Assembly (NCBI RefSeq): GCF_028688295.1 | Contig: NZ_JAQTYM010000020.1 | Span: 1-35,194 of the forward strand | From: Sulfuricurvum sp. | Lineage (GTDB): Bacteria; Campylobacterota; Campylobacteria; Campylobacterales; Sulfurimonadaceae | Direction: 5' to 3' | Length of the DNA stretch: 35,194 nucleotides | Shown here: one piece after another, positions 4,601 to 25,804 of the stretch | Position numbering within the stretch: position 1 is the first letter of the stretch | Layout: the number at the start of each line of letters is the position of its first letter | Translations under genes and position numbers: made by a program | The notes under the pieces: model-generated | Databases searched by the model: none | What the model was told of the DNA's origin: nothing | Seen by the model: the letters and a program-made list of their open reading frames with translations, nothing else

Positions 4601-4640
4601 AGTGCTCTTCTCGTTATGGTATCTCTAATTGTATCAAGAG

Positions 4641-9461: not shown

Positions 9462-10458
9462 GTTTTTCTCCTCGTAAAAGTTTCGCGGCCAATTCCGGTG
9501 CCACCGGATTGATTAACATTTCACTACTTACTTCAAATCCACCGAATCGATAAATACGTGGCAGGATACGGATCACTAACCGATGGGCTTCACACACACC
9601 GATATCTTCCCCAAGAGGGGGTGTTGAAATCGAAAGGTTAAAGGCAAACTCACCCAATTGCAGACGCATTTTTTGGATAATAGAGAGCAGAAGGATCGAG
9701 AGTTGCTCAATAGAGTCATCGCTGAGGGTATCGATCTCACCGACACATTTTTGCGATGAAATCATTACTTCAAAAGGATAACCGCTCGCGTAGGGGCAAA
9801 AGGCACTAAATTCACCTTGTGATTCTATCATCCTAATCCTATGATTTTCTTCATCGCGGAGTATCGACTCTATCAACGCATGATGATGCAGCTCAAAATA
9901 GTCACGCTCACGGCGGTTTAGATCTCTTTGGTGTTTTGGGATTAGAGGTAATGCGATTAGCTGTGTATGGGAATGTTCCAGTGTTGCACCCGCATCAGAG
10001 CCTTCATTTTTAAACAGTGATATATAAGTAAGGCGATGGTCACGACGTAAATCTGCTACCCTTTGGCGAAGTGTTTTAAACCATGCTACACTCTCTGCAT
10101 GACTCCAGTTACTCATCGAGAGATGATGCAGAGGTGTATCAATAATCACTTCATGAGCACCGAAACCATCCCAGTACGAAAAACTATCCGTATGATGCTG
10201 ATGAGACGCTTCGATTGCAACCGCTTTGTAGAGGTTTGGAACGACACGACTCTGCCAACCGATAGCGTTTGCAAAGCTCTCAGAGGAACGAATCGCAAAA
10301 ATCTCTTTGGGGGTCATCGCTTCGTTTCCCTCACAAAATGGACATTCTCCCTTTGTTACGCTTTCGCTCTTTTTGAGGGTAAAATCAGGCCGATGCAACC
10401 GCTCGGGAGCGATAATGACATGGGTGTCGTGTAAACGGTCATAGCGAATTTCAGACAC
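9454..10458 (-). CDS. galT: GalT-like hexose-1-phosphate nucleotidylyltransferase
   Basis: HIT-superfamily protein of 334 residues related to galactose-1-phosphate uridylyltransferase. I chose the GTG at 10456-10458: it gives the family N-terminus (SEIRYDRLHDTHVIIAPER) and GGAG lies seven bases upstream, while an ATG 24 bases earlier lies deeper in the preceding gene. A zinc-type CPFC pair is at 39-42. The catalytic motif reads HSHTQ at 162-166, where E. coli GalT has HPHGQ; His164 aligns with the nucleotidylated histidine. No galK or galE is nearby; the neighbours are glycogen synthases. It may therefore handle ADP- or UDP-glucose rather than galactose (compare ADP-glucose phosphorylase, same superfamily). 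Fold and chemistry are secure; the substrate is not. Confidence 0.85.
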   Translation of the reverse strand: MSEIRYDRLHDTHVIIAPERLHRPDFTLKKSESVTKGECPFCEGNEAMTPKEIFAIRSSESFANAIGWQSRVVPNLYKAVAIEASHQHHTDSFSYWDGFGAHEVIIDTPLHHLSMSNWSHAESVAWFKTLRQRVADLRRDHRLTYISLFKNEGSDAGATLEHSHTQLIALPLIPKHQRDLNRRERDYFELHHHALIESILRDEENHRIRMIESQGEFSAFCPYASGYPFEVMISSQKCVGEIDTLSDDSIEQLSILLLSIIQKMRLQLGEFAFNLSISTPPLGEDIGVCEAHRLVIRILPRIYRFGGFEVSSEMLINPVAPELAAKLLRGEKHG

Positions 10459-12481
10459 GCGTAATCTCCAATACACCTTCAATATTTAGGGAAGACTCAT
10501 AATCAAAGACAAAAGCGATACTGAGACCTTGGACACTTAGATCAAAACCTTGTTCACTTTGAGAGAGGGTTTGCAGTTGAAAATAGTAGGTTTTAAACGC
10601 TCTATCCATTCGGAAAGTGATTTTTTTCTTTAACACGGTATCAATAATCTCAAGACTTTGCAGAGGCTCGATACTTCCGCTGTGTTGTAATGGCATAGCA
10701 TTGATCAACAATTTATCATAATCTGAAAAGTGGAGATTGTGTTCCATGATATAGGTATAATTGTCAAATGAGGCACTCTCTAAGGCTAATGTAAAATTGA
10801 TACAATCCGAACCAAAAGAGAAGTTTTTAGTAATCCGAGCACTCGCTTTCGTATTGGCATAAATTCCTCCATCACGAACAAAGGTGAGAGTGTTTTTAGT
10901 CATTGACGATTCATAGGGCTGATTGGCAAAATCACCGTATTCGCGAAAATTACAGTGGCGAAACGTCTCAGTATCAAAACTCTCATCACTGATATGATCG
11001 ACAAACGAGTTTTTCAAATACCAATCATAAATGATCGCATCACGCAGCGTATCATCAAACGAGCCACTAGCGTGGTGAATCGTATCGATCCCCTCTTCGA
11101 TTGGAGCCGATTTTTCGCGTGGTGCTTCAAAGAGTCGTTTGTGATAAGCCTCTTTACGCCGAGTTAGCGTGTTTTGGTAGTTAAAGCACTTGTCCCGAAC
11201 ATCGAGTTCTACCATCTGTCCACCATGCGCCGCATCAAAACGGGCAATCAGCTTTGAGGTGACCGATTTGTATTTAGGGTAACCATCGAGTTCGTTGGTG
11301 TCACTGACCAATGCTTTTTTCTTACCATAGCGGATGTTTTCGCACTCGATGAGGTAGGTATACGCATTATCCCGAAGATTAGGGAGATAAAGCCCTCCAA
11401 ATACCCCATGCCAGAGCGAATCATTCGTTTGGGCTTTGTGCAACGGTAATTCAAAATCTCCCTCACCTGCATGAAAGGCACGAGAGAGCTCTATGGTTCG
11501 TTTATGAAGACGGTTGGATTCTGGATATTTGACCAAAAAGTTCTTCCATGTCCCCCCTTTGAGAAACTTTACCCCCTCACGCTCGTAACGTTCCAGTCCC
11601 ATCTCTTCTTTGAGTGCTTCAAGAGCCAGTGCATCATCAGCGCGCAAGCTCCACTCTCCCATCTCATAATAGGAGACATTTGGCAGATACGCAATACCGC
11701 GAGGATGATGTGATTTAAAATACTCACTAAAATGGGTCGTTTCAATCTCTTCATCCGCCAAAACTACCTGAACAAATTGTTCTAACCACCCTTTTTCATA
11801 CACCCATTCGTGCGTTCCCGGCCACATACCGAATTTTTCGGCATCATCAAAAATGATCGCAGCCGAATCCTCTTTGCGGTTATACGATTTAATGGCACGA
11901 ATCGCACTCTCTACATTTAAAAAGGGGATCGCATAGCGGAGTTTTTGGCTAATCGGAAACAGTCCCATCGGTACACCGCTCTCTTCGCTCATGTAATACC
12001 CATCCAACCCTTCGCTATCAAATCCTGCACATTGAAAATGGTAGTCATCCATCACGGTATAAGCAATGTCGGCTTTGTTTAAATCAGGTATTAATGCAGA
12101 TTCCCAAACACGTTCTGTCAGCCATAATCCCTGTGGTTTTTGACCAAATCGTTCTTTAATCGAATCGTTCAGCCTCTCTATCTGAGCCACCCGATCCGCT
12201 GCGGGGATAACGCTCAAAATCGGTTCATAATAGCCTGCACTGAAAAATTCGATACTCCCATTGTTCGCCAGAGTAACGATTTTTTCATACAACGTCGGTC
12301 GTAACTGCTCGATTCGCTCCATCAGCCAACCGCTGCAATGGACTGAAAATTTAAAATCGGGATAACGGCTCATCACCTCAAAAAAAGGCTCATAACAGGT
12401 TTTAATCCCCATCTCAATAACCCAATCGAAATTATCCACCGGCTGATGCATATGGATACCCAATAGCAATGATGTTTTCAT
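10451..12481 (-). CDS. GH57 4-alpha-glucanotransferase
   Basis: GH57 protein of 676 residues resembling the Thermococcus litoralis 4-alpha-glucanotransferase, which moves maltooligosaccharide segments between alpha-1,4-glucans. The N-terminal barrel has the HMHQP motif (10-14), WLTERVWE with the expected nucleophile Glu123, and FDDAEKFGMW with Asp212/Asp213 at the acid/base position, followed by the helical and C-terminal beta-sandwich domains of this family. The residue numbers nearly match the T. litoralis enzyme (Glu123, Asp214). I chose the ATG at 12479-12481: AGGAG lies five bases upstream, and this gives an eight-base gap after the previous gene. It has no signal peptide, so it should act on cytoplasmic glycogen or dextrins. 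The 3' end overlaps the GalT-like gene by eight bases. Confidence 0.92.
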   Translation of the reverse strand: MKTSLLLGIHMHQPVDNFDWVIEMGIKTCYEPFFEVMSRYPDFKFSVHCSGWLMERIEQLRPTLYEKIVTLANNGSIEFFSAGYYEPILSVIPAADRVAQIERLNDSIKERFGQKPQGLWLTERVWESALIPDLNKADIAYTVMDDYHFQCAGFDSEGLDGYYMSEESGVPMGLFPISQKLRYAIPFLNVESAIRAIKSYNRKEDSAAIIFDDAEKFGMWPGTHEWVYEKGWLEQFVQVVLADEEIETTHFSEYFKSHHPRGIAYLPNVSYYEMGEWSLRADDALALEALKEEMGLERYEREGVKFLKGGTWKNFLVKYPESNRLHKRTIELSRAFHAGEGDFELPLHKAQTNDSLWHGVFGGLYLPNLRDNAYTYLIECENIRYGKKKALVSDTNELDGYPKYKSVTSKLIARFDAAHGGQMVELDVRDKCFNYQNTLTRRKEAYHKRLFEAPREKSAPIEEGIDTIHHASGSFDDTLRDAIIYDWYLKNSFVDHISDESFDTETFRHCNFREYGDFANQPYESSMTKNTLTFVRDGGIYANTKASARITKNFSFGSDCINFTLALESASFDNYTYIMEHNLHFSDYDKLLINAMPLQHSGSIEPLQSLEIIDTVLKKKITFRMDRAFKTYYFQLQTLSQSEQGFDLSVQGLSIAFVFDYESSLNIEGVLEITRV

Positions 12482-12489
12482 GTTCTCTC

Positions 12490-14481
12490 CTAAAGATACC
12501 AATCAGTGGCAAATTTTTCACTCATATCAATCTTCAGCGGTCCAAATCCTGGCAGGGATTGCACTGTTTTCCCCTCACTGATGAGTTCAAAGCGCAGATG
12601 AACGCTCTTTAACTTTCCGAAACTGCTTCGAGGAAGTGAAAATTCGAGTCGATTGTTAATTTTATAAGGCTCAATGCTCAGTGTCGTTTTAGATTCGTCG
12701 ATTAAAACTTCTACCTTCATATCGCTTACATCACGAATATTCCCCTCACAGGCAATATAGAGGTAATTGTGATCAAACCCATAATAGAGGGTATCAATAG
12801 GACCGCGTACTCTGTCCATGGCTCCAAAAATTTTCCCCTCATCCACACTCCCAGATCCCACCCAATCAAAAAACGTACTTTTCTCTCCGTTCACTTTCGG
12901 TGAGATTGTATTGGTGGGTTTAGTCCATGCAGGTTTTTGAGACTCTTTTGAAATAATCGGGATAAAAAGATCTTGCGGAATCGGTTGGCCTAAAAGGGTG
13001 TAGATGTGAATCAGGTGTTCTCGAAAAAGTGCATCGAATTCGGCGGCAAAATCGGTATTATGATCTTCACCATACCACCAAAACCAATCACTGCATTCTG
13101 AAGCCAAAAGATGATAGTTAATTACTTCTCTCACCTCATCACTTAGTGTTGCTGAGGCAACATCGCGTTGCGTTTGAAAGATAAGTTCCCACGCACGGTT
13201 TTTTTCTCGATGTCCTACCCATGTATCAAACGTCCCGTGTATCCAACTTCCTGGTGCGAGATTCTCTAACGTACCTTGATTTCCAAGCAATGAAACTTCA
13301 TCCATCGTAAGCGTTTTACACCACGAAGAAAGAGAGAGTTCATGATACAAAGAGGTGAAAAAGTCCAATCCGTTATTGTCGTAAAATTCCCATGCATTCT
13401 CCCCATCAACGATCACAAATACACTCGGATTTAGATTGGTTTTGGCAATCTGTTCGAGTTCTTTCATAAAATGGCGACTGGCATCAGCGCCTGAACGATG
13501 ACGATATTCAAACCCGATTAAATCACTCAAACCATGATCACGAAACGCAATCGATACTCCATCGAAAATATAAGGCTTATAGCGTAATGAAGCTGTCTCT
13601 TGTTGAAGTGATTTATAAAGAATCGCTTCATCGGTAGCAATCCATTTGATCGCGTGATTTTTATAGATACGAAGACTCTTTTCATCGACCGCACCCTCAG
13701 CCGGCCAAAAACCTTTTGGCGCACACCCAAACGTTTTTTGATAGAGCTCAATCGAACGGGTAACATGTTCATTCGCATCTTCATAAAGAGGAAACGCCCC
13801 CTCGGGCAAATCGGTAGCAGCATTGGCACGTTTGGCATTTTGCATATCGAGTAAGACCGGTAAAATCGGATGAAAATACGGGGTCGTAGAGACAGAAACT
13901 ACCCCTTTATCTTGAAGAGAAGCATAAAAAGGGAGAATCTCTTGAACAAAACTGCCTAAGGTAGAGAGCAATCCTCTCTTATCCTCAGCATCAAACCCTC
14001 TCCCTTTGAGCAATAATGCTTTCACGAGGGCATTATGAAGGCGTAAATAGTTCCCGCACCATGCAAGGATGAAAACTACTTCCAAATCAATCAACTCATC
14101 ATCGCTAAAAGAAGTATGATAATAAAGCTGTGCATAACGCTCAATCGGACGAACCATTGTCTCAAACTGCATTGCGGTGATGATTTTTATGACCCATTCG
14201 CGTTGCGATTCCTCCAATTGTGAGGGGGGCATCATCCATAAAGAGAGAAAATAGTCGAATTTTAAAGGTTCACGGTAGAGTTGAAGCTGTTCTATCAGTG
14301 AAGCACTGAGATTAAACGTCGCTTTAAGATTCGGATACTCACTCAGTAGCCACGGCATCTCATAATAATCTTTAATGGCGTGTAAAAACACCCAAGGCAT
14401 ACGCATAACACCATCACTCCCCCGGTAATCAGGCTGATGCATGTGCCAAAAAAAGGAGAGATTGAGGGGATTCGTCTCCAT
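12490..14481 (-). CDS. GH57 alpha-glucan hydrolase (amylase/amylopullulanase-like)
   Basis: A second GH57 enzyme, 663 residues from the ATG at 14479-14481. That start overlaps the stop of the upstream gene (TAATG); an ATG 15 bases earlier has no usable SD spacing. HMHQPDY is at 13-19, the nucleophile motif WPAEG has Glu262, and VDGENAWEFY has the acid/base candidate Asp359. The last 120 residues or so look like a separate beta-sandwich domain, as in amylopullulanase-type GH57 proteins. With no signal peptide it is likely cytoplasmic and could cut alpha-1,4 or alpha-1,6 bonds of the stored glucan; no separate GlgX-type debranching gene is in the window, so it may fill that role. Exact bond specificity cannot be read from the motifs. 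Confidence 0.88.
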   Translation of the reverse strand: METNPLNLSFFWHMHQPDYRGSDGVMRMPWVFLHAIKDYYEMPWLLSEYPNLKATFNLSASLIEQLQLYREPLKFDYFLSLWMMPPSQLEESQREWVIKIITAMQFETMVRPIERYAQLYYHTSFSDDELIDLEVVFILAWCGNYLRLHNALVKALLLKGRGFDAEDKRGLLSTLGSFVQEILPFYASLQDKGVVSVSTTPYFHPILPVLLDMQNAKRANAATDLPEGAFPLYEDANEHVTRSIELYQKTFGCAPKGFWPAEGAVDEKSLRIYKNHAIKWIATDEAILYKSLQQETASLRYKPYIFDGVSIAFRDHGLSDLIGFEYRHRSGADASRHFMKELEQIAKTNLNPSVFVIVDGENAWEFYDNNGLDFFTSLYHELSLSSWCKTLTMDEVSLLGNQGTLENLAPGSWIHGTFDTWVGHREKNRAWELIFQTQRDVASATLSDEVREVINYHLLASECSDWFWWYGEDHNTDFAAEFDALFREHLIHIYTLLGQPIPQDLFIPIISKESQKPAWTKPTNTISPKVNGEKSTFFDWVGSGSVDEGKIFGAMDRVRGPIDTLYYGFDHNYLYIACEGNIRDVSDMKVEVLIDESKTTLSIEPYKINNRLEFSLPRSSFGKLKSVHLRFELISEGKTVQSLPGFGPLKIDMSEKFATDWYL

Positions 14482-16988
14482 TATGCTTTCGCCCATTCCT
14501 CAATTTTTGAGGTGTAGAGCTGGGTATAGTGTTCCCCTTTCTCATTGCTTTTAGCTTGAATCGTGAGATTTAAAAGATCACTATATTGATCCGGTATCAT
14601 CAGTACCCAATCATTTTTATCAAGCCAAATTTTCACCCCATCAAGGGTAGAAGACTCTTTCCCTTTTGCATCTTCGAGGAATTTACGCATCATTTTTCCC
14701 TTCAATGCCTGAGTACAAGGGACTTGGATCGTTGTGTAGAAAAACTGCGGCAATGAATCAATGATCGTAGAGAGTTTAACACCATGATTTACCATCATCT
14801 CTAAAATTTTCAAGGTGGCGTACATCGAATCTCGATGAGTTGCGAATTCACTAAAAGTAAAGTTCCCCTCACCTGTCGCGATTAAATCATACGTTTTCAT
14901 TTTAGATGATTTAAAATTCGCATACTGCCCTCGCTCAATGATCAGGTGATCAAAATAAACAATATCCGCAGCCCAAGTCGGTAAGAATACCCGTTTCTTC
15001 GTCCCATGTGCTTTTGCATCCATATTTAGAAGGTTTAAAACGACATACAGTGCTGTCTGTTTCGAGAGAGGTTTTCCTTCATCGCAAATAATATCAAGTC
15101 TCTGACCGTGTGGATAGAGGATAAATCCGGCATCGAGTTTAAGGGCATTAATAACCGCTCCCATATCCTCGTAAGAACGTTTTACCAACGTATTGATATT
15201 TGAAAGACGCTGCTCATCGGCATACGCATTGAACATAATATGTTCGATCCCCAAATCATTCAAAATACTCGGGAAAACTTCTGAAGCAAGTCCGTGTGTT
15301 AAATCTACCGCAATGCGACAATCGAGACATTTAAAACGGTGAGAATGGAGGATTGCTTCCATCCCTTTTTTATATTCATTATATTCACGTTTATGATCGA
15401 GTTCATGAATTTGTCCGATTTGTGAATAATCAACCCGTCTAAAGTTCTCTTTAAAAAAAGCTTTTTCCACTTTTTTAGCAACATCATTATTAATACGAAG
15501 GGCTTCTTGGTTATAGAAGGTAATGACGGTACTGGTCGGATCATCGATCTTTTGGTGAAAATGGACTCCGGCAGTGTATTTATCATGAAATGAGAGACTA
15601 CAACGCATCACGGCTGAGGGGATAGCATTATAATCAACAACATCGACTCCTGCTGAGAGAAGACCCCCTAAAAATGCCCGTTTCAACATCCGCGAGCTTT
15701 TATCGTAATGGCGTGAAACTAAAACCGTCGATCCGATCGGTAACTGCGATCCAAATGCTTCTGCGAGCTTGGTCGCCATTTCACACGAGAGCTCAATGTT
15801 TGATTTACCAATAACCATTCCGTCTTCAAAAATGGAATTTTTATATTTGCTCCCCAAAATTACACTTCGACTGACGATAGCTGCATCTTCGATCACTTTA
15901 TTCGGCCAAATGGTTACATCTTTTTCGATCGTAACCAACTCTCCGATTTCGCACCCTTGCGCTAAAATCAATCCCGATTTAGCGGTAACATTTTTACCGA
16001 TACGGTTGTTACAACAGATAACGCATCCATCGAGTTTAGCATTTTTACCGATCTCTACATCATCCCAGATAACCGTGTTGGCCACCTTCGAAGAGCTCCC
16101 AATTGTTACGTTGTTACCGATAACGACATTGCTGAGTTTAGAGCCTTTTTTAACCACGACATCTTTACCGATCACAACGATCCCCACCACTTCGACACTA
16201 TCATCGAGAGTATTGTCTTCTTCACAAATCAATACACCATCGGGATATTTGACCGCTTCGCCACCGATGTTAAATTTGATTTTACCGGCAAGAATATCTT
16301 CATAAACATCGCGATAACTTTCAGGATTACCGACATCGCGCCAATACCCACTGGCGTATCCTGCTATCAAATCAATCCCTTGACGCATTAAAAGAGGAAA
16401 TAAGTCTTTAGCGAAATCAAAATTTTCATTTTTCGGAATGTATTCTAAAATCTCAGGTTCGATGATGTATATTCCCGTATTTATCGTATCACTAAATACT
16501 TCACCCCAGCTCGGTTTTTCCAGGAACTTTTCAATTTTTCCCTCTTCGTTCGCGATAACTACTCCAAATTCGAGAGGATTTTCAACCGAGGTTAACGTAA
16601 TGGTTAATTTTGAGTTTTTGGCTTTGTGGTAATCAAAAATCTGTTGAAAATCAAAATCGGTTACCAAGTCCCCGCTAATGATAATAAAGTTTTCATCTCC
16701 GATAAGTTCTTGGGCTTTTTTAACCGCACCGGCAGTCCCATAATCATCATCAGGGACAACATAGGTGATATTGATCCCCCATGCACTTCCGTCTTTGAAA
16801 TAATCTTTGATGGTGTCAGGTTTAAAGTAAAGCAGAATAATAAACTCAGTGATCCCTAAATCTCTGAGACTCACGATGGTATGTTCCATCATCGGACGAT
16901 TCATAATCGGTAACATAGGTTTAGGAATAGAATTTGTAAGAGGTTGTATCCGTGTACCGAATCCACCTGCCATAACCACTGCTTTCAT
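14481..16988 (-). CDS. Sugar nucleotidyltransferase fused to degenerate phosphohexomutase domain
   Basis: Protein of 835 residues with three parts. Residues 1-235 form a nucleotidyltransferase with GGFGTR (8-13) and KPMLPI (23-28), which normally joins a sugar-1-phosphate to NTP. Residues 245-390 or so are hexapeptide repeats of a left-handed beta-helix. Residues 397-835 are a phosphoglucomutase/phosphomannomutase-like domain. In that last part the phosphoserine loop (TASHNP type) is replaced by AGVHFHQKID (473-482). The metal loop (DGDxDR) is replaced by YPHGQR (625-630), and the sugar and phosphate loops are also altered, so mutase activity is unlikely. It opens the glycogen operon where glgC might be expected, but lacks the GlgC signature after its GTR motif. 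Similar fusions are usually annotated mannose-1-phosphate guanylyltransferase. The SD AAAAGGAG precedes the ATG by four bases. Confidence 0.9.
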   Translation of the reverse strand: MKAVVMAGGFGTRIQPLTNSIPKPMLPIMNRPMMEHTIVSLRDLGITEFIILLYFKPDTIKDYFKDGSAWGINITYVVPDDDYGTAGAVKKAQELIGDENFIIISGDLVTDFDFQQIFDYHKAKNSKLTITLTSVENPLEFGVVIANEEGKIEKFLEKPSWGEVFSDTINTGIYIIEPEILEYIPKNENFDFAKDLFPLLMRQGIDLIAGYASGYWRDVGNPESYRDVYEDILAGKIKFNIGGEAVKYPDGVLICEEDNTLDDSVEVVGIVVIGKDVVVKKGSKLSNVVIGNNVTIGSSSKVANTVIWDDVEIGKNAKLDGCVICCNNRIGKNVTAKSGLILAQGCEIGELVTIEKDVTIWPNKVIEDAAIVSRSVILGSKYKNSIFEDGMVIGKSNIELSCEMATKLAEAFGSQLPIGSTVLVSRHYDKSSRMLKRAFLGGLLSAGVDVVDYNAIPSAVMRCSLSFHDKYTAGVHFHQKIDDPTSTVITFYNQEALRINNDVAKKVEKAFFKENFRRVDYSQIGQIHELDHKREYNEYKKGMEAILHSHRFKCLDCRIAVDLTHGLASEVFPSILNDLGIEHIMFNAYADEQRLSNINTLVKRSYEDMGAVINALKLDAGFILYPHGQRLDIICDEGKPLSKQTALYVVLNLLNMDAKAHGTKKRVFLPTWAADIVYFDHLIIERGQYANFKSSKMKTYDLIATGEGNFTFSEFATHRDSMYATLKILEMMVNHGVKLSTIIDSLPQFFYTTIQVPCTQALKGKMMRKFLEDAKGKESSTLDGVKIWLDKNDWVLMIPDQYSDLLNLTIQAKSNEKGEHYTQLYTSKIEEWAKA

Positions 16989-17209: not shown

Positions 17210-18673
17210 ATGAGCGAACTATCAAATCTATGTGATGTGATTATATTCGGCGGACACGGCGATCTTGCGTTTCGTAAGCTAATGCCGGCGTTATACCATC
17301 TCTGTAATGACGGCTATCTAAACCACAGCAGTCGTATCCTCTCGACAACAAGAGCCTCAATAACTCAAGAAGAACACATTGCCCTAGTAAAAGTAAAACT
17401 CCAAGAGTTTTTGGCTCTCGGGCAGTTTGATGAAACAAAATTTGAGACCTTTAAAGAACGTCTCCAAGTGGTCACTCTCGATTTAGGTAAAGAAGAGAGC
17501 TATAGTGAACTCAATACCCTGCTAGGTGAGCATCCCGATCGCGATCGGATCAGCTATCTCTCTACCTCACCCGATTTTTTCGGTGCTATCTGCAAAGCAT
17601 TGAGTGGTTGGAATCTCATCACCCCTCAAAGCCGTGTTGTTTTGGAAAAACCGATTGGACGCGATTTGGACTCCTCTCGGGCGATCAATGTCGAAGTGTT
17701 GAAATATTTCGAAGAATCACAGGTTTATCGTATCGATCACTATTTGGGTAAAGATACCGTCCAAAATATTATGGCGTTACGTTTTTCCAACCGTATTTTT
17801 ATGCCGCTATGGGATGCGAGTAATATCGATCATGTCCAAATCACCGTTGCTGAAGCGGTAGGAGTTGAGGGGAGATGGGGATATTATGATGATTACGGCG
17901 CAATGCGAGATATGATCCAAAACCACCTTATGCAGCTATTATGCCTTATCGCTATGGAGCCTCCATGTTCGCTCGAAGCGGACAGTGTGAGGGATGAAAA
18001 GGTAAAAGTACTCCGATCACTCCGTCCGATGAGTGCTGCGGATATTCAGCTCAAAACCGTACGTGCCCAATACACCAAAGGTTCCAGCAACGGTGAAATC
18101 GTCCCTGGATATAAAGAGGGAGAGGGTGTAGAGCACAGCAATACCGAAACCTATGCGGCGATTCGTGTCGATATCGATAACTGGCGCTGGAACGGCGTAC
18201 CCTTTTATCTTCGAAGCGGTAAACGGATGCGAAGCCGAAATTCGGAAATCGTTATCCATTTCAAATCGATCCCCTACTCTATTTTTGCCAATAAAGGGAG
18301 CTGTATTTCCGAAAACAAACTGGTTATCTCACTACAGCCTAAAGAGAGTATCGAGCTAAAACTCATGAACAAAATTCCTGGTCTTAGCGAGCAAATGCGA
18401 TTGCAACAGGTCGATTTAGAACTCAATTCTCCGATGAATGAAGAGCGCAAACCTGAGGCGTATGAGCGATTAATGCTCGATGTTATCCGCAGTAATCCAA
18501 CCCTCTTTATGCGACTCGATGAGGTCGAAGCGGCGTGGAAATGGGCCGATATCATTTTACAAGGGTGGCATGAGAACATCATCCCGATGAAAAGCTATCA
18601 AGCAGGAACCGATGGCCCTACGGCTGCGGTTGAATTGATCGCACGCGATAGCAGAAGCTGGCATGATGAGTAA
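17210..18673 (+). CDS. zwf: Glucose-6-phosphate 1-dehydrogenase
   Basis: Oxidises glucose-6-phosphate to 6-phosphogluconolactone with NAD(P), the entry step to the Entner-Doudoroff route. The 487 residues match the usual family length. The dinucleotide-binding motif reads FGGHGDLAFRKLMPALYHL near residues 13-31 (the family GxxGDLxxRK). The substrate-site motif RIDHYLGK is near residue 177. LEKPIGRDL and PFYLRSGKRM are also present. First gene of a tight plus-strand operon; the next gene overlaps its 3' end by 11 or 8 bases. The product is cytoplasmic, and cofactor choice cannot be settled by eye. ATG start with a weak upstream SD. Confidence 0.98.
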   Translation: MSELSNLCDVIIFGGHGDLAFRKLMPALYHLCNDGYLNHSSRILSTTRASITQEEHIALVKVKLQEFLALGQFDETKFETFKERLQVVTLDLGKEESYSELNTLLGEHPDRDRISYLSTSPDFFGAICKALSGWNLITPQSRVVLEKPIGRDLDSSRAINVEVLKYFEESQVYRIDHYLGKDTVQNIMALRFSNRIFMPLWDASNIDHVQITVAEAVGVEGRWGYYDDYGAMRDMIQNHLMQLLCLIAMEPPCSLEADSVRDEKVKVLRSLRPMSAADIQLKTVRAQYTKGSSNGEIVPGYKEGEGVEHSNTETYAAIRVDIDNWRWNGVPFYLRSGKRMRSRNSEIVIHFKSIPYSIFANKGSCISENKLVISLQPKESIELKLMNKIPGLSEQMRLQQVDLELNSPMNEERKPEAYERLMLDVIRSNPTLFMRLDEVEAAWKWADIILQGWHENIIPMKSYQAGTDGPTAAVELIARDSRSWHDE

Positions 18674-19358
18674 TCTCCATCTTCACCGATTTGAGAGTGA
18701 TGATCTCCTAGCTGCATCTTTGGCTGATGCCATCGCTGAAAATCTACGAGATGCCCTCTCACAAAAAGGGACTGCATCACTGATCGTATCAGGGGGAAGC
18801 ACTCCCAAAAAACTCTTTCATGCCCTCAGTCAGATAGATATTGACTGGGAAAATGTCAAAATTGGCTTGTGTGATGAGCGCTGGGTCGGAGCAGACCATA
18901 TCGATAGCAATGAGAAACTGGTGCGAGAAAATCTCATGGTAGGGCATGCGTCCAAAGCCACTTTTATCGGGATGTTTATCGAGGGAGCTGAAGCAGACGA
19001 TGCCCAAAGCGCTTGTACTCAAAACATCAAAGCATCATTGTTCCCTTTTGATGTGATCGTTTTAGGGATGGGAGAGGATGCCCATACCGCCTCTCTCTTT
19101 CCCCATAATCCAAAACTCCAAGAGGCGTATGAGAGCCATGAGCTTTGTATTTCGATTGAGCCCTCTACGGCTCCACATTTAAGAATGAGTTTAACACGGA
19201 GTGCTATACTCTCTGCAAAGCATCTCTATCTCCATTTTCAAGGGGATAAAAAGGGTGAACTCTATCATCAAGCACTTGAGGGTAACGATACTTTTGAGAT
19301 GCCGATTCGCTCTATTCTCCATCAACCATACACACCTATAGAGGTATACACCGCATGA
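18663..19358 (+). CDS. pgl: 6-phosphogluconolactonase
   Basis: Hydrolyses 6-phosphogluconolactone to 6-phosphogluconate. The protein has 231 residues, of the bacterial DevB/Pgl type. The substrate-binding motif VSGGSTPKKL lies near residue 41, LCDERWV near 69, and the C-terminal GMGEDAHTASLFP motif near 135-148. It begins with two consecutive ATG codons (18663 and 18666), either of which may be used, and it overlaps zwf. Its last codon overlaps the edd start as ATGA. Position and motifs agree on the second step of the Entner-Doudoroff pathway. Confidence 0.96.
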   Translation: MMSNLHLHRFESDDLLAASLADAIAENLRDALSQKGTASLIVSGGSTPKKLFHALSQIDIDWENVKIGLCDERWVGADHIDSNEKLVRENLMVGHASKATFIGMFIEGAEADDAQSACTQNIKASLFPFDVIVLGMGEDAHTASLFPHNPKLQEAYESHELCISIEPSTAPHLRMSLTRSAILSAKHLYLHFQGDKKGELYHQALEGNDTFEMPIRSILHQPYTPIEVYTA

Positions 19359-21184
19359 ATCCGATCATCCAACGTGTCACGGAACAGATACGAGAACGTT
19401 CACTTCATACCAGAGCTCTTTACTTACAACGTCTAGGAAAGGCAAAAACACACGGTGTCAACCGTCAAAAGCTAGGTTGCAGTAACCTCGCCCATGCGAT
19501 GGCTCCTATGGACGATGCGGGAAAAACATCCCTCTCACAACTGCATAACCCTAACATCGCAATTGTCACCGCTTACAACGACATGCTCTCCGCACATGAG
19601 CCCTATAAACTCTACCCTAGCCTCATTAAACGTACCCTCGCCGACGCGGGAGCGACGTGCCAAGTCGCCGGTGGAGTTCCTGCCATGTGCGATGGAGTGA
19701 CGCAATCTCAGCCGGGAATGGAGCTGAGCCTCTTTAGCCGTGACAATATCGCAATGGGGACCGCTATCGCCCTCTCGCATAATGTTTATGACGGCGCTCT
19801 TTATCTTGGGATATGCGATAAAATCGTACCGGGTCTCGTGATCGGAGCACTAACTTTCGGTCATCTTCCGGCTGTATTTATACCAGCCGGACCGATGCCA
19901 TCAGGGATCAGCAACGCTGAAAAAGCCCACATTCGCCAAGAGTTTGCCAAAGGAAACATCACCGAAGATGCCCTCTTAAAAGCTGAAGCCGCATCGTATC
20001 ACAGCAGTGGAACCTGTACCTTTTACGGTACGGCAAACTCCAACCAAATGCTGTTAGAGATGATGGGACTTCAACTCCCGAACAGCTCTTTTGTCAACAC
20101 CAACACACCGCTACGTGAGGCTCTTACCGCTGAAGCGGCAAAGCGAATTTTAACCATGACAGAGATCAGCGGAGATTACAAACCCATCGGGGAGATGATC
20201 GATGAGCGCAGTTTCGTCAATGCGATCATCGGGCTTATGGCGACAGGAGGCTCTACCAACCATACCCTCCACCTCATCGCTATGGCAAAAGCCGCTGGGA
20301 TACATCTCACATGGGATGATTTCGATCAACTCTCAAAAGTTACCCCTTTGCTGTGCCGTATGTATCCTAACGGAAATGCCGATGTCAATGCGTTTAGAGA
20401 TGCGGGGGGTATGTCGGTCGTGATCCATCAGCTCCTCAATGCCGGGTTAGCGCATAATGATGTTGAGACAATTATGGGGCGTGGACTGGATCGCTATAGC
20501 GTTGAACCCACCCTTTCTGAATCTGGATTTGCGTTTATTTCAGGGCCTCACCTCTCACGTGATACCTCAGTGATTTCGAGCGCCGAAACACCATTTAGTC
20601 CTGAGGGGGGTCTTAAACTTCTCGTGGGTAATATCGGGCGAAGCGTTATTAAAACCTCCGCGCTCAAAGACAAAAATCTGATCATCGAAGCCGAAGCGAT
20701 CGTATTTGATTCCCAAGAAGCACTCCAAGAGGCATTTAAACGAGGAGAACTGGAGCGAGACTTTATCGCCGTTGTCCGTTTTCAGGGACCTCGTGCCAAC
20801 GGTATGCCGGAACTTCACGGCCTCATGCCTCCTCTGGGTGTTTTACAAGAGAGAGGGTTTAATGTTGCTATCATCACCGATGGACGTATGTCGGGGGCCT
20901 CAGGTAAAGTTGCCTCAGCCATCCACATGAGTCCTGAAGCCTCTCGCGGAGGGGTATTGGCAAAAATCAACAGCGGTGATAAAATTCGATTTGATGTTCA
21001 AAAAGGGGAAATTACCCTTTTGGTTGATCCAAAAATATTAGAGGAACGATCACGACATGTAGCTGATATGGAACATAACCGCTACGGATTTGGTCGGGAA
21101 CTCTTTAGTGCGATCCGATCTTCGGTCAAAAGCGCTGAAGAGGGAGCCGGAATTTTTGAGTCCATTGGAGAAGAGCGCGCATGA
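19355..21184 (+). CDS. edd: Phosphogluconate dehydratase
   Basis: Dehydrates 6-phosphogluconate to 2-keto-3-deoxy-6-phosphogluconate, the defining step of the Entner-Doudoroff route. The 609 residues match the IlvD/Edd family. Cysteines expected to hold the iron-sulfur cluster occur in the MCDGVTQSQPGME and GICDKIVPG regions, with the HSSGTCTFYGTANSNQM motif further on and TDGRMSGASGK near the C-terminus. The KLGCSNLAHAMAP N-terminal region is typical of Edd rather than dihydroxyacid dehydratase. It overlaps pgl and eda by four bases each (ATGA), so translation is probably coupled. Confidence 0.97.
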   Translation: MNPIIQRVTEQIRERSLHTRALYLQRLGKAKTHGVNRQKLGCSNLAHAMAPMDDAGKTSLSQLHNPNIAIVTAYNDMLSAHEPYKLYPSLIKRTLADAGATCQVAGGVPAMCDGVTQSQPGMELSLFSRDNIAMGTAIALSHNVYDGALYLGICDKIVPGLVIGALTFGHLPAVFIPAGPMPSGISNAEKAHIRQEFAKGNITEDALLKAEAASYHSSGTCTFYGTANSNQMLLEMMGLQLPNSSFVNTNTPLREALTAEAAKRILTMTEISGDYKPIGEMIDERSFVNAIIGLMATGGSTNHTLHLIAMAKAAGIHLTWDDFDQLSKVTPLLCRMYPNGNADVNAFRDAGGMSVVIHQLLNAGLAHNDVETIMGRGLDRYSVEPTLSESGFAFISGPHLSRDTSVISSAETPFSPEGGLKLLVGNIGRSVIKTSALKDKNLIIEAEAIVFDSQEALQEAFKRGELERDFIAVVRFQGPRANGMPELHGLMPPLGVLQERGFNVAIITDGRMSGASGKVASAIHMSPEASRGGVLAKINSGDKIRFDVQKGEITLLVDPKILEERSRHVADMEHNRYGFGRELFSAIRSSVKSAEEGAGIFESIGEERA

Positions 21185-21813
21185 ATAGTTATGATGTAAT
21201 GAATATCTCCCCTATCGTTCCGGTGATTGCCATCGACAATGCTGATGATGCATTGAGCCTCGCTGAAGCGTTGCTAGAGGGGGGAGTTGGCCTTATGGAG
21301 ATCACTCTTCGCACCGAAGCGGGATTGAGAGCGATCGAAATTATTGCCAAAGAGTATCCGCAGATGGCGGTGGGCGCGGGAACGGTAATCAACCGAGCAG
21401 GATTTAAAAGCGCAGTCGATCACGGTGCACAGTTTGTCTTTAGTCCGGGAATTAACCAAGAGATCATGGATGCCTCATCTGAACTTAATACCCCTCTAAT
21501 CCTCGGTGTCGCTACTGCATCTGAGGTGATGTTCGCTCTTAACAACGGATTTGAATACTGTAAACTCTTTCCGGCAACCGCCGTCGGAGGGGTCGATACA
21601 CTAAACGCTCTCTACGGTCCATTTCCGAGTATGCGTTTTTGTCCTACCGGAGGGATCAATTTTAACAATATCAACGACTTTTTAAAACTCCCCAATGTAC
21701 TGTGTGCGGGGGGAAGTTGGATCGTTCCTAAGCAATCCTTGCACGTGAAAGATTTTAAACATATTACACACCTTTGCAACGAAGCCATTGCTCACATACA
21801 TAATAATCGATAA
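21181..21813 (+). CDS. eda: KDPG/KHG aldolase
   Basis: Splits 2-keto-3-deoxy-6-phosphogluconate into pyruvate and glyceraldehyde-3-phosphate. The 210-residue class I aldolase has the family motifs: the Glu-containing LMEITLRT strand, GAGTV, and the Schiff-base lysine in YCKLFPATAVGG. PTGGIN and a phosphate-binding CAGGSW follow. GGAGAAGAG lies just before the ATG. It completes the Entner-Doudoroff set directly after edd. The next gene starts 12 bases later. Confidence 0.97.
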   Translation: MNSYDVMNISPIVPVIAIDNADDALSLAEALLEGGVGLMEITLRTEAGLRAIEIIAKEYPQMAVGAGTVINRAGFKSAVDHGAQFVFSPGINQEIMDASSELNTPLILGVATASEVMFALNNGFEYCKLFPATAVGGVDTLNALYGPFPSMRFCPTGGINFNNINDFLKLPNVLCAGGSWIVPKQSLHVKDFKHITHLCNEAIAHIHNNR

Positions 21814-21825
21814 AATAGGTCCCTA

Positions 21826-24813
21826 ATGCATTCAGAACAACTCAACGCTTTACTCGAAAAACACTACCTTTCAATTGATTCGATCATCCTCTCTCGCCAA
21901 GACGCTATCACAGGTCTTTTACCTGCGAGTACAGCGATAACCGCTCATGGTGATTATACCGATGCGTGGGTGAGAGATAATGTTTACAGTATCCTATCGG
22001 TTTGGGGACTCTCTCTCTCGTATCGCAAACACAACCCTGATGATGTACGCAGTTATACCCTCAGCCAAAGCGTCGTTAAACTGATGCGCGGTCTGTTAAT
22101 GGCGATGATGCGCCAATCCAATCGTGTAGAGACCTTCAAAACCACCCTTAATCCCACCGATGCTCTCCATGCCAAATATGGAACCTCTAGCGGTTTAGCG
22201 GTTGTCGGAGATGATGAATGGGGGCATTTACAGCTTGACGCGACCTCTTTGTACCTTTTAATGATGGCGCAAATGATTGCTTCAGGACTAAAGCTCATTT
22301 ACACCATGGATGAAGTCAATTTTGTTCAAAACCTCGTCCATTACATAAGCCACACCTATTGCACTGCCGATTACGGTATTTGGGAGAGAGGAAACAAGAT
22401 CAACCATGGGACGACTGAGATCAACTGCAGTTCAGTCGGTATGGCAAAAGCAGCGTTGGAAGCGATGAGCGGATTCAACCTTTTTGGAAATGTTGCGAGT
22501 CATGAGGGGATCATTCACGTTATCCCAAGCGACATTGCACGCTCACGCTTTACCCTGCACGGATTACTCCCGCGTGAATCAAACTCAAAAGAGACCGATG
22601 CCGCCTTGCTGAGTATTATAGGCTACCCCGCTTATGCCATCGAGGATGAATCACTCATCGACCGGACACGCCACAAAATCATCAAAAAACTAGCAGGGAA
22701 CTACGGATGCAAACGATTTTTACTCGATGGACATCAAAGCAGTATTGAAGACCCTTCACGTCTTCACTACGAACCCTCCGAATTACGTGAATTTGCCGAT
22801 ATAGAGTCCGAATGGCCCCTCTTTTTCACCTATCTTCTCTTAGATGCCCACATGCGTGAAGATGCTCAAGAGGTAGAAGTATGGCGAGAGAAACTCGAAC
22901 CCCTATTTGTAGATCACCATGGACAAAAACTCTTGCCTGAGCTCTACCTCGTCCCCAAAGAGCTGATCGATGCCGAAAAAGAGAATCCAAAAAGTCAACT
23001 GAGAATTCCCAATGAAAATATCCCTCTCGTTTGGGCGCAGAGCCTTTTTATCCTTAGTGACCTTATCCAAGATTCTCTCCTTCATCCTCACGATATCGAT
23101 CCGTTGTGTCGACGCGAACGGATCGCACTAAAGAGGACCGTACACCCACTCGTTACCCTGATCGCGGAAAATGAGACGGTCAAAGAAAAACTTCTCGATA
23201 ACGGAATCTACAGCGAAACCCTCGAAGAGTTGCACCCGATACAAGTGATGCACGCAACAGAGCTCTCTAAAATCCATACCCTTCTGGGGAGAAACACAAA
23301 ACTAGGACTAAGCGGCCGTCCGATGATGGCCGCTAGAACCATCACCACGGCACGTCTCCACCTCGTTGAGCAACAAGAAATTGTATTTCTTCCTTACTAT
23401 TTCAATCCAAAAGGGTTCTATTTCAATTATGACAATACCCTATTGGTGAAACGTTTTCGTTCATCATTGAAATTTCTCGCGACCCATTGGGATCAGAACG
23501 GTCAACCTCTCCTCCCGTTTCTTGTACGTGAAGATATGCTGAGCGATAACCAAAAAGAGGTTATTTTTCAACTCCTCTATGATTTGCAAAAAGAATCATG
23601 TAACGCGATAACGATTAAAACAGGATCATTAAAGCAGATTTTATCCAATGCCAGTATTGAGAGGATCGATAATATCCATGAAGCGCAGCTGCAAAACCTG
23701 AATCTTCATCACCTAGGTAAAGAAGATTTCGCCCATCCCTACTCCAATATTATCGAACACCATTATGAATCGGTAGCGCTCAAACAAGATTGGAATAATG
23801 TCCGTAGATTTGCGGAAGTTTTGGGCAAATATGATAATAAACTCGAAGATGCTCTGCTGGATATTATCATCCACCAAAAACGCCTTGCTATCGGAAGAGC
23901 TTACAGTGAAAAAGCGACTTTTTCAAATCCACTCAAAAATGCTACTATCGTAGAGATCATCAACGAATCGTGCGGAAACAATGCGGCTGAGGGGGTCTTA
24001 ACCCAAGAGATTATGATCTATTTGGGAGAACTGATTCAGGTAGAGCCAGAGCTCTTTACCAACATGCTCACCCTTCGTACCTGGTATTTTGTTCAGCTTC
24101 TCGTCGGTCAAATTATCCGAGAAAGAGAACTCTCTATTGCCGATGCGTACGAGCATCTGATTTCTCTTGCACCGCATGATATTTATGAGCGGATACATTC
24201 GATTTTGCGCTCTTTTTCCCTCGAAGTATCGCAACTAAACTCCCAAGAAAACCTCAATGCCTCAGGGGTGTCATTACTTAATGCTACGCCGCTCCAATCC
24301 CCTTTTAGCACCTCTTTGCACAACGATGATTGGCTAGAATGGCGAGTTTTAGAGGGAATGATCAGCAGAGTTTCTAACGATTTCTATAAAGACGTATGGC
24401 ATCTTTTGCGTCAATGTAACGGGCTGGTAATCGGGGACAAATACAGTTTACAAAGTCGTATTGGCTCAGAACTCACCCTAGATTCTACCGCAGGTGAACA
24501 GAGCTTTGCCCACCGCGTTGATGATCTTTTACAAAGTATCGAAGCACCTGAGTACCGACAGCTGAACATCGAAGTGATCAAATCCCTCTCGAAACTCTCC
24601 AAACAAATGCCCGATCTTCAGATCAAGAACGACTTGGTTCTGGATGTCCTCATCGGTCATGCGGTTCGTATCGGATGGAAACAACAACACCCTCATGAAG
24701 AAAATTATGATGATTCCCGTGGTGCTGCATGGGAAGCGATGTATACGTATCCTCCTGAAAAAACGGCTGAATTGTTTATTGAAGCCTTAATGTATTTATT
24801 ATCCCCACAATAA
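21826..24813 (+). CDS. Phosphorylase kinase alpha/beta-like (GH15-related) protein
   Basis: Protein of 995 residues homologous to the regulatory alpha/beta subunits of eukaryotic phosphorylase b kinase, which themselves contain a GH15 glucoamylase-like (alpha/alpha)6 barrel. Diagnostic strings are DYTDAWVRDN (43-52), DEWGHLQLDATSLYLL (130-145), IWERGNKINHG (185-195), SSVGMAKAALEAM (202-214) and PLVWAQSLFIL (400-410). The C-terminal half ends in a region (WKQQHP, WEAMYTYPPEK) resembling the kinase subunits' C-terminal domain. Glu187 in IWERG could be the GH15 general acid and Glu397 a possible base, so glucan hydrolysis is conceivable. It lies between eda and glk, where a glucose-releasing or glucan-sensing protein would make sense. 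There is no signal peptide and no kinase gamma-type catalytic gene nearby. Homology is clear; its function in bacteria is open. Confidence 0.85.
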   Translation: MHSEQLNALLEKHYLSIDSIILSRQDAITGLLPASTAITAHGDYTDAWVRDNVYSILSVWGLSLSYRKHNPDDVRSYTLSQSVVKLMRGLLMAMMRQSNRVETFKTTLNPTDALHAKYGTSSGLAVVGDDEWGHLQLDATSLYLLMMAQMIASGLKLIYTMDEVNFVQNLVHYISHTYCTADYGIWERGNKINHGTTEINCSSVGMAKAALEAMSGFNLFGNVASHEGIIHVIPSDIARSRFTLHGLLPRESNSKETDAALLSIIGYPAYAIEDESLIDRTRHKIIKKLAGNYGCKRFLLDGHQSSIEDPSRLHYEPSELREFADIESEWPLFFTYLLLDAHMREDAQEVEVWREKLEPLFVDHHGQKLLPELYLVPKELIDAEKENPKSQLRIPNENIPLVWAQSLFILSDLIQDSLLHPHDIDPLCRRERIALKRTVHPLVTLIAENETVKEKLLDNGIYSETLEELHPIQVMHATELSKIHTLLGRNTKLGLSGRPMMAARTITTARLHLVEQQEIVFLPYYFNPKGFYFNYDNTLLVKRFRSSLKFLATHWDQNGQPLLPFLVREDMLSDNQKEVIFQLLYDLQKESCNAITIKTGSLKQILSNASIERIDNIHEAQLQNLNLHHLGKEDFAHPYSNIIEHHYESVALKQDWNNVRRFAEVLGKYDNKLEDALLDIIIHQKRLAIGRAYSEKATFSNPLKNATIVEIINESCGNNAAEGVLTQEIMIYLGELIQVEPELFTNMLTLRTWYFVQLLVGQIIRERELSIADAYEHLISLAPHDIYERIHSILRSFSLEVSQLNSQENLNASGVSLLNATPLQSPFSTSLHNDDWLEWRVLEGMISRVSNDFYKDVWHLLRQCNGLVIGDKYSLQSRIGSELTLDSTAGEQSFAHRVDDLLQSIEAPEYRQLNIEVIKSLSKLSKQMPDLQIKNDLVLDVLIGHAVRIGWKQQHPHEENYDDSRGAAWEAMYTYPPEKTAELFIEALMYLLSPQ

Positions 24814-24823
24814 AGGTAGTGAC

Positions 24824-25804
24824 ATGATATTAGCAGGTGATATTGGCGGAACCAAAACTTCTTTGGCACTGTTTGAGATTCAGGAAAACGCTCTAGAGCT
24901 CTATGCACAATACCAATTTTCCAGTCAAGCATATACCAACTTTAGCGATATCATTCGCGAATTTATGCAGATGTTTCCAGATGCTTGTATTACCTCTTCC
25001 TCTTTTGGGATAGCAGGTCCGATTATCGATGAACGGTGCCAAACTACCAATCTTCCCTGGGATATCTCAGCTGTGAATCTGAGAGAACTTTTAGGGGTAG
25101 ATCAGGTCTACCTGCTCAATGATCTTGAAGCAACCGCTTACGGAATGCTCCATTTGGAAGATAGTGCATTTGTCGATTTGAATCCCGATGCAAAACCTGC
25201 AAGAGGCAATTGTGCCGTTATCGCTGCAGGAACGGGTTTGGGCGAAGCGATCCTCTATTTTGATGGCAAAAACTACCACCCTATCGCTTCTGAGGGGGGA
25301 CATTGTGATTTTGCACCGTTAACGCCTCAGCAAGATGCCCTTTTGCTGTGGCTTCGTCAACGTTTTCCTGAGCATGTTAGTCTAGAGCGAATATTATCCG
25401 GCCCAGGGGTCTCAACACTCTATGATTATTTGAGAGAAAGCGGCTTTGCCGCTGAATCGGATTTACTTAACAATATAGGTGAGAATGAGGACAAAAGTGC
25501 CCTTATCAGCAAAGCGGCATTCGAAGAGAACGATCCCCTCTGCGTCGAAACCTTACGTCTTTTTTCTGAAATTTATGGAGCAGAAGCAGGCAATCTTGCC
25601 CTAAAGTGTCTCTGTGTTGGCGGGGTGTATCTCGGCGGAGGAATCGCGCCGAAAATATTACCGTTTTTGCAAACCGATACTTTCTTTCGTGCGTTTATTT
25701 CAAAAGGACGCTTTGAACCTATGCTACGTCAGATCCCGATCAAAGTTTCACTTAATCCTGAAACTGCCCTTTTGGGAGCAGCCCATTTTTCTAATAAAAG
25801 CTAA
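24824..25804 (+). CDS. glk: Glucokinase
   Basis: Phosphorylates free glucose with ATP to glucose-6-phosphate. The 326 residues fit the bacterial Glk family (not ROK type). The N-terminal phosphate-binding motif GDIGGTKTSLALFE is at 5-18, the LLNDLEATAYG motif near 99-109, GTGLGEA near 136, and the glucose-binding SEGGHCDFAP near 154. AAAGG lies just before the ATG, ten bases after the phosphorylase-kinase-like gene. It ends the plus-strand operon and would feed glucose from glucan breakdown straight to zwf. The stop is only 12 bases from the stop of a convergent gene, with no visible terminator. Confidence 0.96.
   Translation: MILAGDIGGTKTSLALFEIQENALELYAQYQFSSQAYTNFSDIIREFMQMFPDACITSSSFGIAGPIIDERCQTTNLPWDISAVNLRELLGVDQVYLLNDLEATAYGMLHLEDSAFVDLNPDAKPARGNCAVIAAGTGLGEAILYFDGKNYHPIASEGGHCDFAPLTPQQDALLLWLRQRFPEHVSLERILSGPGVSTLYDYLRESGFAAESDLLNNIGENEDKSALISKAAFEENDPLCVETLRLFSEIYGAEAGNLALKCLCVGGVYLGGGIAPKILPFLQTDTFFRAFISKGRFEPMLRQIPIKVSLNPETALLGAAHFSNKS

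Follow-up and report, generated by a model that had tools for sequence, protein, structure and literature searches.

A phosphorylase kinase alpha/beta homologue beside glucokinase in Sulfuricurvum: a candidate GH15-type alpha-glucan glucosidase

What is a homologue of the alpha and beta subunits of animal phosphorylase kinase (PhK) doing in a bacterium, between the genes of the Entner-Doudoroff pathway and a glucokinase gene? The question is raised by a gene in a 35,194-nt stretch of Sulfuricurvum sp. DNA (contig NZ_JAQTYM010000020.1; the whole stretch analysed is called the window here). Six genes read in the same direction here, zwf-pgl-edd-eda-[gene]-glk, and the gene in question, the fifth of them, lies 12 nt after eda and 10 nt before glk, with a glycogen cluster on the other strand:

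2957-16988 (-), divergent glycogen cluster: short alpha-glucan phosphorylase, glgB, two glgA, galT-like, two GH57 genes and a nucleotidyltransferase/phosphomutase fusion (profile matches)
17210-18673 (+), zwf, glucose-6-phosphate dehydrogenase (TIGR00871 above cut-off)
18663-19358 (+), pgl, 6-phosphogluconolactonase (TIGR01198 above cut-off)
19355-21184 (+), edd, phosphogluconate dehydratase (TIGR01196 above cut-off)
21181-21813 (+), eda, KDPG aldolase (TIGR01182 above cut-off)
24824-25804 (+), glk, glucokinase (PF02685, E 6e-99; TIGR00749 above cut-off)

One of the two GH57 genes carries 4-alpha-glucanotransferase domains. The fusion at 14481-16988 (-), which heads the glycogen cluster, encodes 835 aa and joins a nucleotidyltransferase to a phosphoglucomutase/phosphomannomutase-like half. 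The two glgA (starch/glycogen synthase) paralogues at 6563-9461 (-) are adjacent and overlapping.

The initial annotation had described a 995-residue PhK alpha/beta homologue between eda and glk, opposite glycogen genes and with no kinase subunit near. Its position is confirmed by the ORFs and profile matches, the homology by Pfam (GH15 and KPBB_C) and PDB matches, and a Pfam scan of 19 window proteins (ORFs up to 29638) found no protein-kinase domain. Four Hanks-type kinase matches over the cut-off lie on other contigs of the same genome. The genes for animal PhK subunits are likewise unlinked, so the lack of a kinase gene nearby says little.

The reading frame runs uninterrupted through 995 codons from an ATG, and the strand opposite 21826-24813 holds no ORF of at least 100 aa within the gene. 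Two Pfam domains pass their cut-offs, Glyco_hydro_15 over residues 15-752 (E 1.1e-77) and KPBB_C, the phosphorylase b kinase C-terminal domain, over residues 765-993 (E 1.7e-78). The top PDB sequence matches are human PhK alpha (E 4.9e-203; 47% identity over 595 residues) and then beta (E 3.9e-165; 43% over 404 residues), which share with the window protein the order of a GH15-like D1 followed by KPBB_C (PDB 8JFK, 8Z5M); alpha is longer, at 1223 residues. Searched against PDB at an E limit of 10, a profile of 39 homologues returned PhK alpha/beta and two chains with E >1, and nothing else. The sole NCBIfam match was to a trehalase model, at 26.9 bits against a cut-off of 820. With both domains and homology over its full length, the protein belongs to the PhK alpha/beta family, and since the domain pair is present in Pfam and in many bacteria the gene is a further member of a known family. 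Its closest relatives among the matches listed are Sulfuricurvum MAGs, one of which (L022) shares the gene order from zwf to glk. A viral or plasmid origin was rejected, as none of the three stretches in viral_contigs that matched six patterns encodes a relative, and plasmids gave just two distant matches, both within chromosome-sized E. coli records. The gene and the parts of it discussed below are:

21826-24813 (+), PhK alpha/beta-type protein with GH15-like D1, D2, short D3 and KPBB_C (Pfam and PDB matches, models)
21826-23115 (+), D1, GH15-like barrel domain, residues 1-430, the boundary being our choice (model and Foldseek)
21955-21957 (+), Tyr44, proposed base-positioning tyrosine, role by analogy (invariant in the bacterial alignment)
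21967-21978 (+), Trp48-Val49-Arg50-Asp51, GH15 substrate-pocket motif (alignment)
22384-22386 (+), Glu187, proposed general acid, equivalent to human alpha Glu185 (alignment)
22939-22941 (+), Glu372, proposed general base, in LLPELY, equivalent to human alpha Glu371 (alignment)
24118-24804 (+), KPBB_C domain, residues 765-993 (Pfam)

The full-length structure model (mean pLDDT 83.9, pTM 0.83) matched PhK alpha/beta over the whole length, with a TM of 0.70-0.74 by query and an rmsd of about 15, so the domain packing either differs from that of PhK or is unsure. The D1 model (pLDDT 85.3, pTM 0.90) aligned with eight PhK chains at TM 0.85-0.91 in Foldseek, and the remaining matches under E 0.001 were the Glycosidase entries 7c24, 7c25 and 5z3c only (TM 0.62 by query, 0.70-0.71 by target). 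Structure comparison against GH15 and PhK alpha, a check proposed at the outset, thus puts PhK first and a true GH15 enzyme as the next family, the 5Z3A series being an isomaltose glucohydrolase (PMC12446779, in the part available). By our assignment the D1 model contains twelve long barrel helices, as in the (alpha/alpha)6 barrel of GH15. Helices 161-174 and 201-214 flank Glu187, and helices 347-360 and 402-415 flank Glu372. By our own helix numbering, the two residues fall in the alpha5-alpha6 and alpha11-alpha12 loops, the GH15 places for acid and base. Residues 37-43 and 187-192 were modelled at pLDDT <50. The Kribbella flavida isomaltose glucohydrolase (5Z3A series; 5z3c, 7c24) has in common with window D1 the barrel, the two-Glu layout, Pro-Glu at the base and a Tyr in the alpha1-alpha2 loop, but differs in its low identity (~17%, 371 residues), in having no D2-D5 and in carrying Gln, not Leu, after the base.

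Conservation of the putative active site was read from an alignment of 84 bacterial rows: the window protein, three further relatives (L007-L009) and the best 80 of at least 556 relatives. The 80 come from a scan of genome_contigs with at least 594 pattern matches, 556 of those listed encoding relatives; duplicates (L010, L011) and cut loci (L001-L006, L012-L021) were left out. Because the best 80 were used, the sample leans towards the window's kin. Within it, Trp48, Arg50, Asp51, Asp138, Glu187, Pro371 and Glu372 are present in 84/84 rows, as are Tyr44 and its loop-mates His41 and Gly42. The catalytic glutamates of human alpha are Glu185 and Glu371, according to the accessible text of PMC10978961. 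The initial annotation had pointed to Glu187, which indeed occupies the acid position, and with less assurance to Glu397. The latter was rejected as the general base, since alignment with human alpha Glu371 places the base at Glu372; Glu397 is Glu in 76 of the 84 rows and Gly in human alpha.

Tyr44 is where bacterial and human proteins part. GH15 enzymes have a tyrosine in their alpha1-alpha2 loop that bonds to the general base (PMC12446779, in the part available), a role which Tyr44 would play by analogy. Human alpha, which keeps both catalytic Glu, has Gln at this position and lacks six residues before Asp43, whereas human beta has Asp and lacks four; the HMMER alignment shows the same gaps. 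At Trp48, Arg50, Asp51, Asp138, Glu187, Pro371 and Glu372, human beta reads Lys, Gln, Asp, Asn, Glu, Pro and Lys, so that Trp48, Arg50, Asp138 and the base are lost. Since human alpha has lost Tyr44 and part of its loop, while Tyr44, His41 and Gly42 are invariant in the bacterial rows, its two Glu may make the human site look better preserved than it is; the bacterial site may be better preserved than the Glu pair alone would indicate. Directly after the base, 79 of the 84 rows (best 80 of at least 556 relatives included) have Leu, four have Val and one has Ile. Bacterial rows therefore lack the Gln found after the base in inverting GH15 hydrolases, a rule which rests on three enzymes in the available part of PMC12446779; the same source states that sequence cannot separate inverting from retaining enzymes.

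Across these rows, again including the best 80 of at least 556 relatives, D1 is far more conserved than the remaining domains. One residue fills at least 97% of rows in 166 of 421 D1 columns, compared with 15/195 in D2, 9/140 in the D3 region and 19/230 in KPBB_C. Compared with human alpha D1, six cyanobacterial rows are 60-64% identical and the window protein 54%, with values up to 65% in a wider set. D2-D5 are kept across phyla and probably serve assembly or regulation. The D3 stretch measures 29-45 residues in the window protein and six long-enough rows (L022, L032, L033, L037, L039, L041), and 106-111 residues in L040, L052 and L055. Unlike human alpha, the bacterial proteins lack the kinase-docking features sought: at the alpha-gamma docking positions, Lys588 is Lys and Tyr593 is Tyr in 1/84 rows each (Asp and Ser in the window protein), and the CaaX tail is missing, with a Cys among the last eight residues in 0/84 rows (L023 and L048 end prematurely), both counts including the best 80 of at least 556. 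The window protein thus has neither the gamma contacts nor the CaaX of a PhK regulatory subunit, nor a kinase gene nearby among the 19 proteins scanned.

The gene keeps close company with glk. KPBB_C was found in 6/298 genomes drawn from the window's phylum and in 15/100 near relatives. Among the latter, glk occurs in 17, comprising 15/15 carriers and 2/85 non-carriers (Fisher p 5e-16, kinship ignored), and in all 15 carriers it is the next gene on the same strand, with 15 to 75 nt between the matched regions as read from coordinates; in carrier G310 the gene is split across two contigs and glk follows the second piece. The corresponding figures are 16/100 for edd over the cut-off (12/15 carriers, 4/85 others; p 7e-10) and 49/100 for glgB (14/15 carriers, 35/85 others; p 2e-4), kinship again ignored; the one carrier without glgB over the cut-off is a genome 57% complete. 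All three p values overstate the independent evidence, because kinship is ignored and because the gene and glk may move as one cassette. The Entner-Doudoroff operon of the initial annotation stands as a gene order in the window, but a specific tie to those genes was set aside as weaker than that to glk, 3/15 carriers having no edd.

Loci of the best 80 of at least 556 relatives extend this picture. There, glk lies within 2.5 kb downstream, on either strand, in 24 of the 26 Campylobacterota-type loci with room (the misses are L035 and L041), in 4/7 gammaproteobacterial-titled loci and in 0/1 from Lentisphaerales. The Campylobacterota-type group numbers 29 loci, two of them without a phylum in the title; a glgP, glgA, glgB or GH57 homologue is present in 9, and a zwf, pgl, edd or eda homologue in 10, room being unequal. 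At L009, which is not one of these 80, glk is absent from the 3.9 kb after the gene. Genome-wide, glk was matched in 29/33 carrier genomes searched (L065 and L098 outside the count), with no match in those of L034, L035, L041 and L096.

Cyanobacterial copies are another matter. KPBB_C is over the cut-off in 59/244 genomes drawn from the cyanobacterial phylum, or 60 including one weak match. Synechococcus elongatus, a laboratory strain whose genome served as a control, has a KPBB_C match as well. The proteins are full-length homologues, 43-47% identical to the window protein and with the key residues kept, but glk lies within 2.5 kb downstream of 0/39 copies, and none of 13 window-neighbour homologues sought was found in 41 cyanobacterial loci (both among the best 80 of at least 556). 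All 22 cyanobacterial carrier genomes searched have glk somewhere. The neighbourhood survey suggested by the initial annotation therefore upheld the association with glk among near relatives and also turned up, in part, the occurrence elsewhere that was named as a point against. One genome of the cyanobacterial phylum, G592, has two KPBB_C matches over the cut-off (374 and 312 bits), a possible alpha/beta-like two-copy duplication. A tree built on D1 from 57 rows unites the Campylobacterota copies in a single group with support 100/100. Copies from three MAG contigs titled Gammaproteobacteria (L034, L042, L081) fall inside this group, either through transfer or because the contigs were misbinned. 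Branches leading to the human pair are very long, the tree has a midpoint root only, and its bootstrap values had not settled; placing the pair by tree was dropped, and we make no claim on the direction of transfer.

The reading we find most likely on this evidence, though at even odds, is that this member of the PhK alpha/beta family is a cytoplasmic alpha-glucan glucosidase of GH15 type, acting without a kinase partner and feeding Glk. D1 would bind glycogen or maltodextrin by a non-reducing end. Protonation of the glycosidic oxygen would fall to Glu187 and activation of water to Glu372, which Tyr44 would hold in place, and free glucose would leave. Glk would then phosphorylate it, and Zwf, Pgl, Edd and Eda would pass glucose-6-phosphate on. 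In a narrower form, the enzyme would act on alpha-1,6 glucose stubs that remain after the short phosphorylase and the GH57 glucanotransferase have worked, clearing them much as the eukaryotic debranching enzyme does; this would account for the need of a glucokinase. Since the window's genome has no GH77 match and no GH15 match besides this gene, its product is a candidate source of intracellular free glucose. The GH57 enzymes could be another, and glucose import is possible too, with two partial Sugar_tr matches (44 and 38 bits) above the family cut-off. The branching-enzyme model matches only glgB in the window's genome, which is weak evidence that a second GH13-type protein such as GlgX is missing there; among the 15 carriers, second matches of this type occur in four at 247-275 bits, with one further match at 18.8 bits.

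A glucoamylase supplying Glk had been suggested from the start. In its favour are the intact GH15 residues in 84/84 rows (best 80 of at least 556 included), glk in 15/15 carriers and GH15 as the next structural family; against it stand the loss of Glu397 as base, the link being tighter to glk than to the Entner-Doudoroff genes, and the cyanobacterial copies away from glk. Other points tell against hydrolysis. Maltose, isomaltose and glycogen gave no detected activity with human alpha, although it has both Glu (PMC10978961, in the part available), Leu follows the base, loop 187-192 is of low model confidence, 3/15 carriers have no edd, 4/33 carrier genomes have no glk match, and with a phosphorylase in the same cluster hydrolysis looks wasteful. 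The human pocket has stayed very similar although no activity was detected, which makes a glucan sensor or scaffold without turnover the main rival. In it, D1 would bind chain ends and D2-D5 would signal to an enzyme such as Glk or phosphorylase, PhK alpha/beta having kept the sensing role and gained a kinase; an ancestral glucan sensor was the alternative that the initial annotation had offered. The conservation of D2-D5 across phyla fits, as does the statement in the accessible text of PMC10978961 that acarbose binds and activates PhK. We think this rather unlikely, since the bacterial rows keep every catalytic and base-positioning residue without variation, the human subunits have lost Tyr44, and a glucokinase partner suggests glucose as product.

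Hydrolysis of another alpha-glucoside, such as trehalose or isomalto-oligosaccharide, would also feed Glk. The nearest GH15 structures are the isomaltose glucohydrolase series and the single NCBIfam match, though far below its cut-off, is a trehalase; the divergent glycogen genes of the window and the glycogen-gene homologues in 9/29 Campylobacterota-type loci (best 80 of at least 556) make such a substrate unlikely. Still less probable is a retaining transglucosidase that shifts glucosyl units between glucans in the manner of dextran dextrinase, in which loss of the Gln after the base accompanies the retaining mechanism (PMC12446779, as far as available); Leu at this position agrees with it, but the tight glk link would be left without a reason. 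A role like that in animals, as regulatory subunit of a protein kinase, would fit the full-length homology with PhK alpha/beta, and Hanks-type kinase domains do lie elsewhere in the genome. Given the near-complete absence of the gamma contacts and the CaaX cysteine, and no kinase among the 19 scanned window proteins, we judge it very improbable.

We also put forward, tentatively and as doubtful on balance, an evolutionary view: the bacterial proteins would be still-active intracellular alpha-glucan (maybe alpha-1,6 stub) glucosidases coupled to glucokinase, and the animal subunits derived pseudoenzymes. The base-positioning loop would have been trimmed, alpha losing Tyr44 and beta losing Tyr44, Trp48, Arg50 as well as the base; the animal subunits would have gained the kinase dock and CaaX tail, the old pocket staying as a sensor of glucans or drugs. 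The cryo-EM study of human PhK, in its available part, leaves unexplained how the seemingly intact glucoamylase site of alpha goes with absent activity (PMC10978961). The Tyr44 loop is a candidate explanation for this silence, and the question of the PhK glucoamylase fold becomes testable with a bacterial relative that is encoded by one gene, has all the residues and sits in an operon from which its product can be predicted. The gene further suggests, for sulfur-oxidising Campylobacterota, a hydrolytic route leading from glycogen to the Entner-Doudoroff pathway.

The Tyr44-loop contrast does not appear in the accessible parts of PMC10978961 and PMC12446779. No study of a bacterial member was found in the titles and abstract openings of the open-licence literature, and in the visible part of a Synechocystis paper glucoamylase appears as an assay reagent only. 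As far as the literature searches reach, this contrast and the near-strict glucokinase linkage in Campylobacterota are new within the open-licence literature searched.

One distant relative may be added. It is a distant GH15-like protein of 550 aa encoded by L108 (NZ_CP134663.1), an E. coli record of 4.9 Mb that is listed among plasmids and is probably a chromosome; PhK subunits are its sole PDB sequence matches at E up to 1. In the distant GH15-like protein of the E. coli record, Tyr, Trp, Arg, Asp and Glu align with Tyr44, Trp48, Arg50, Asp51 and Glu187.
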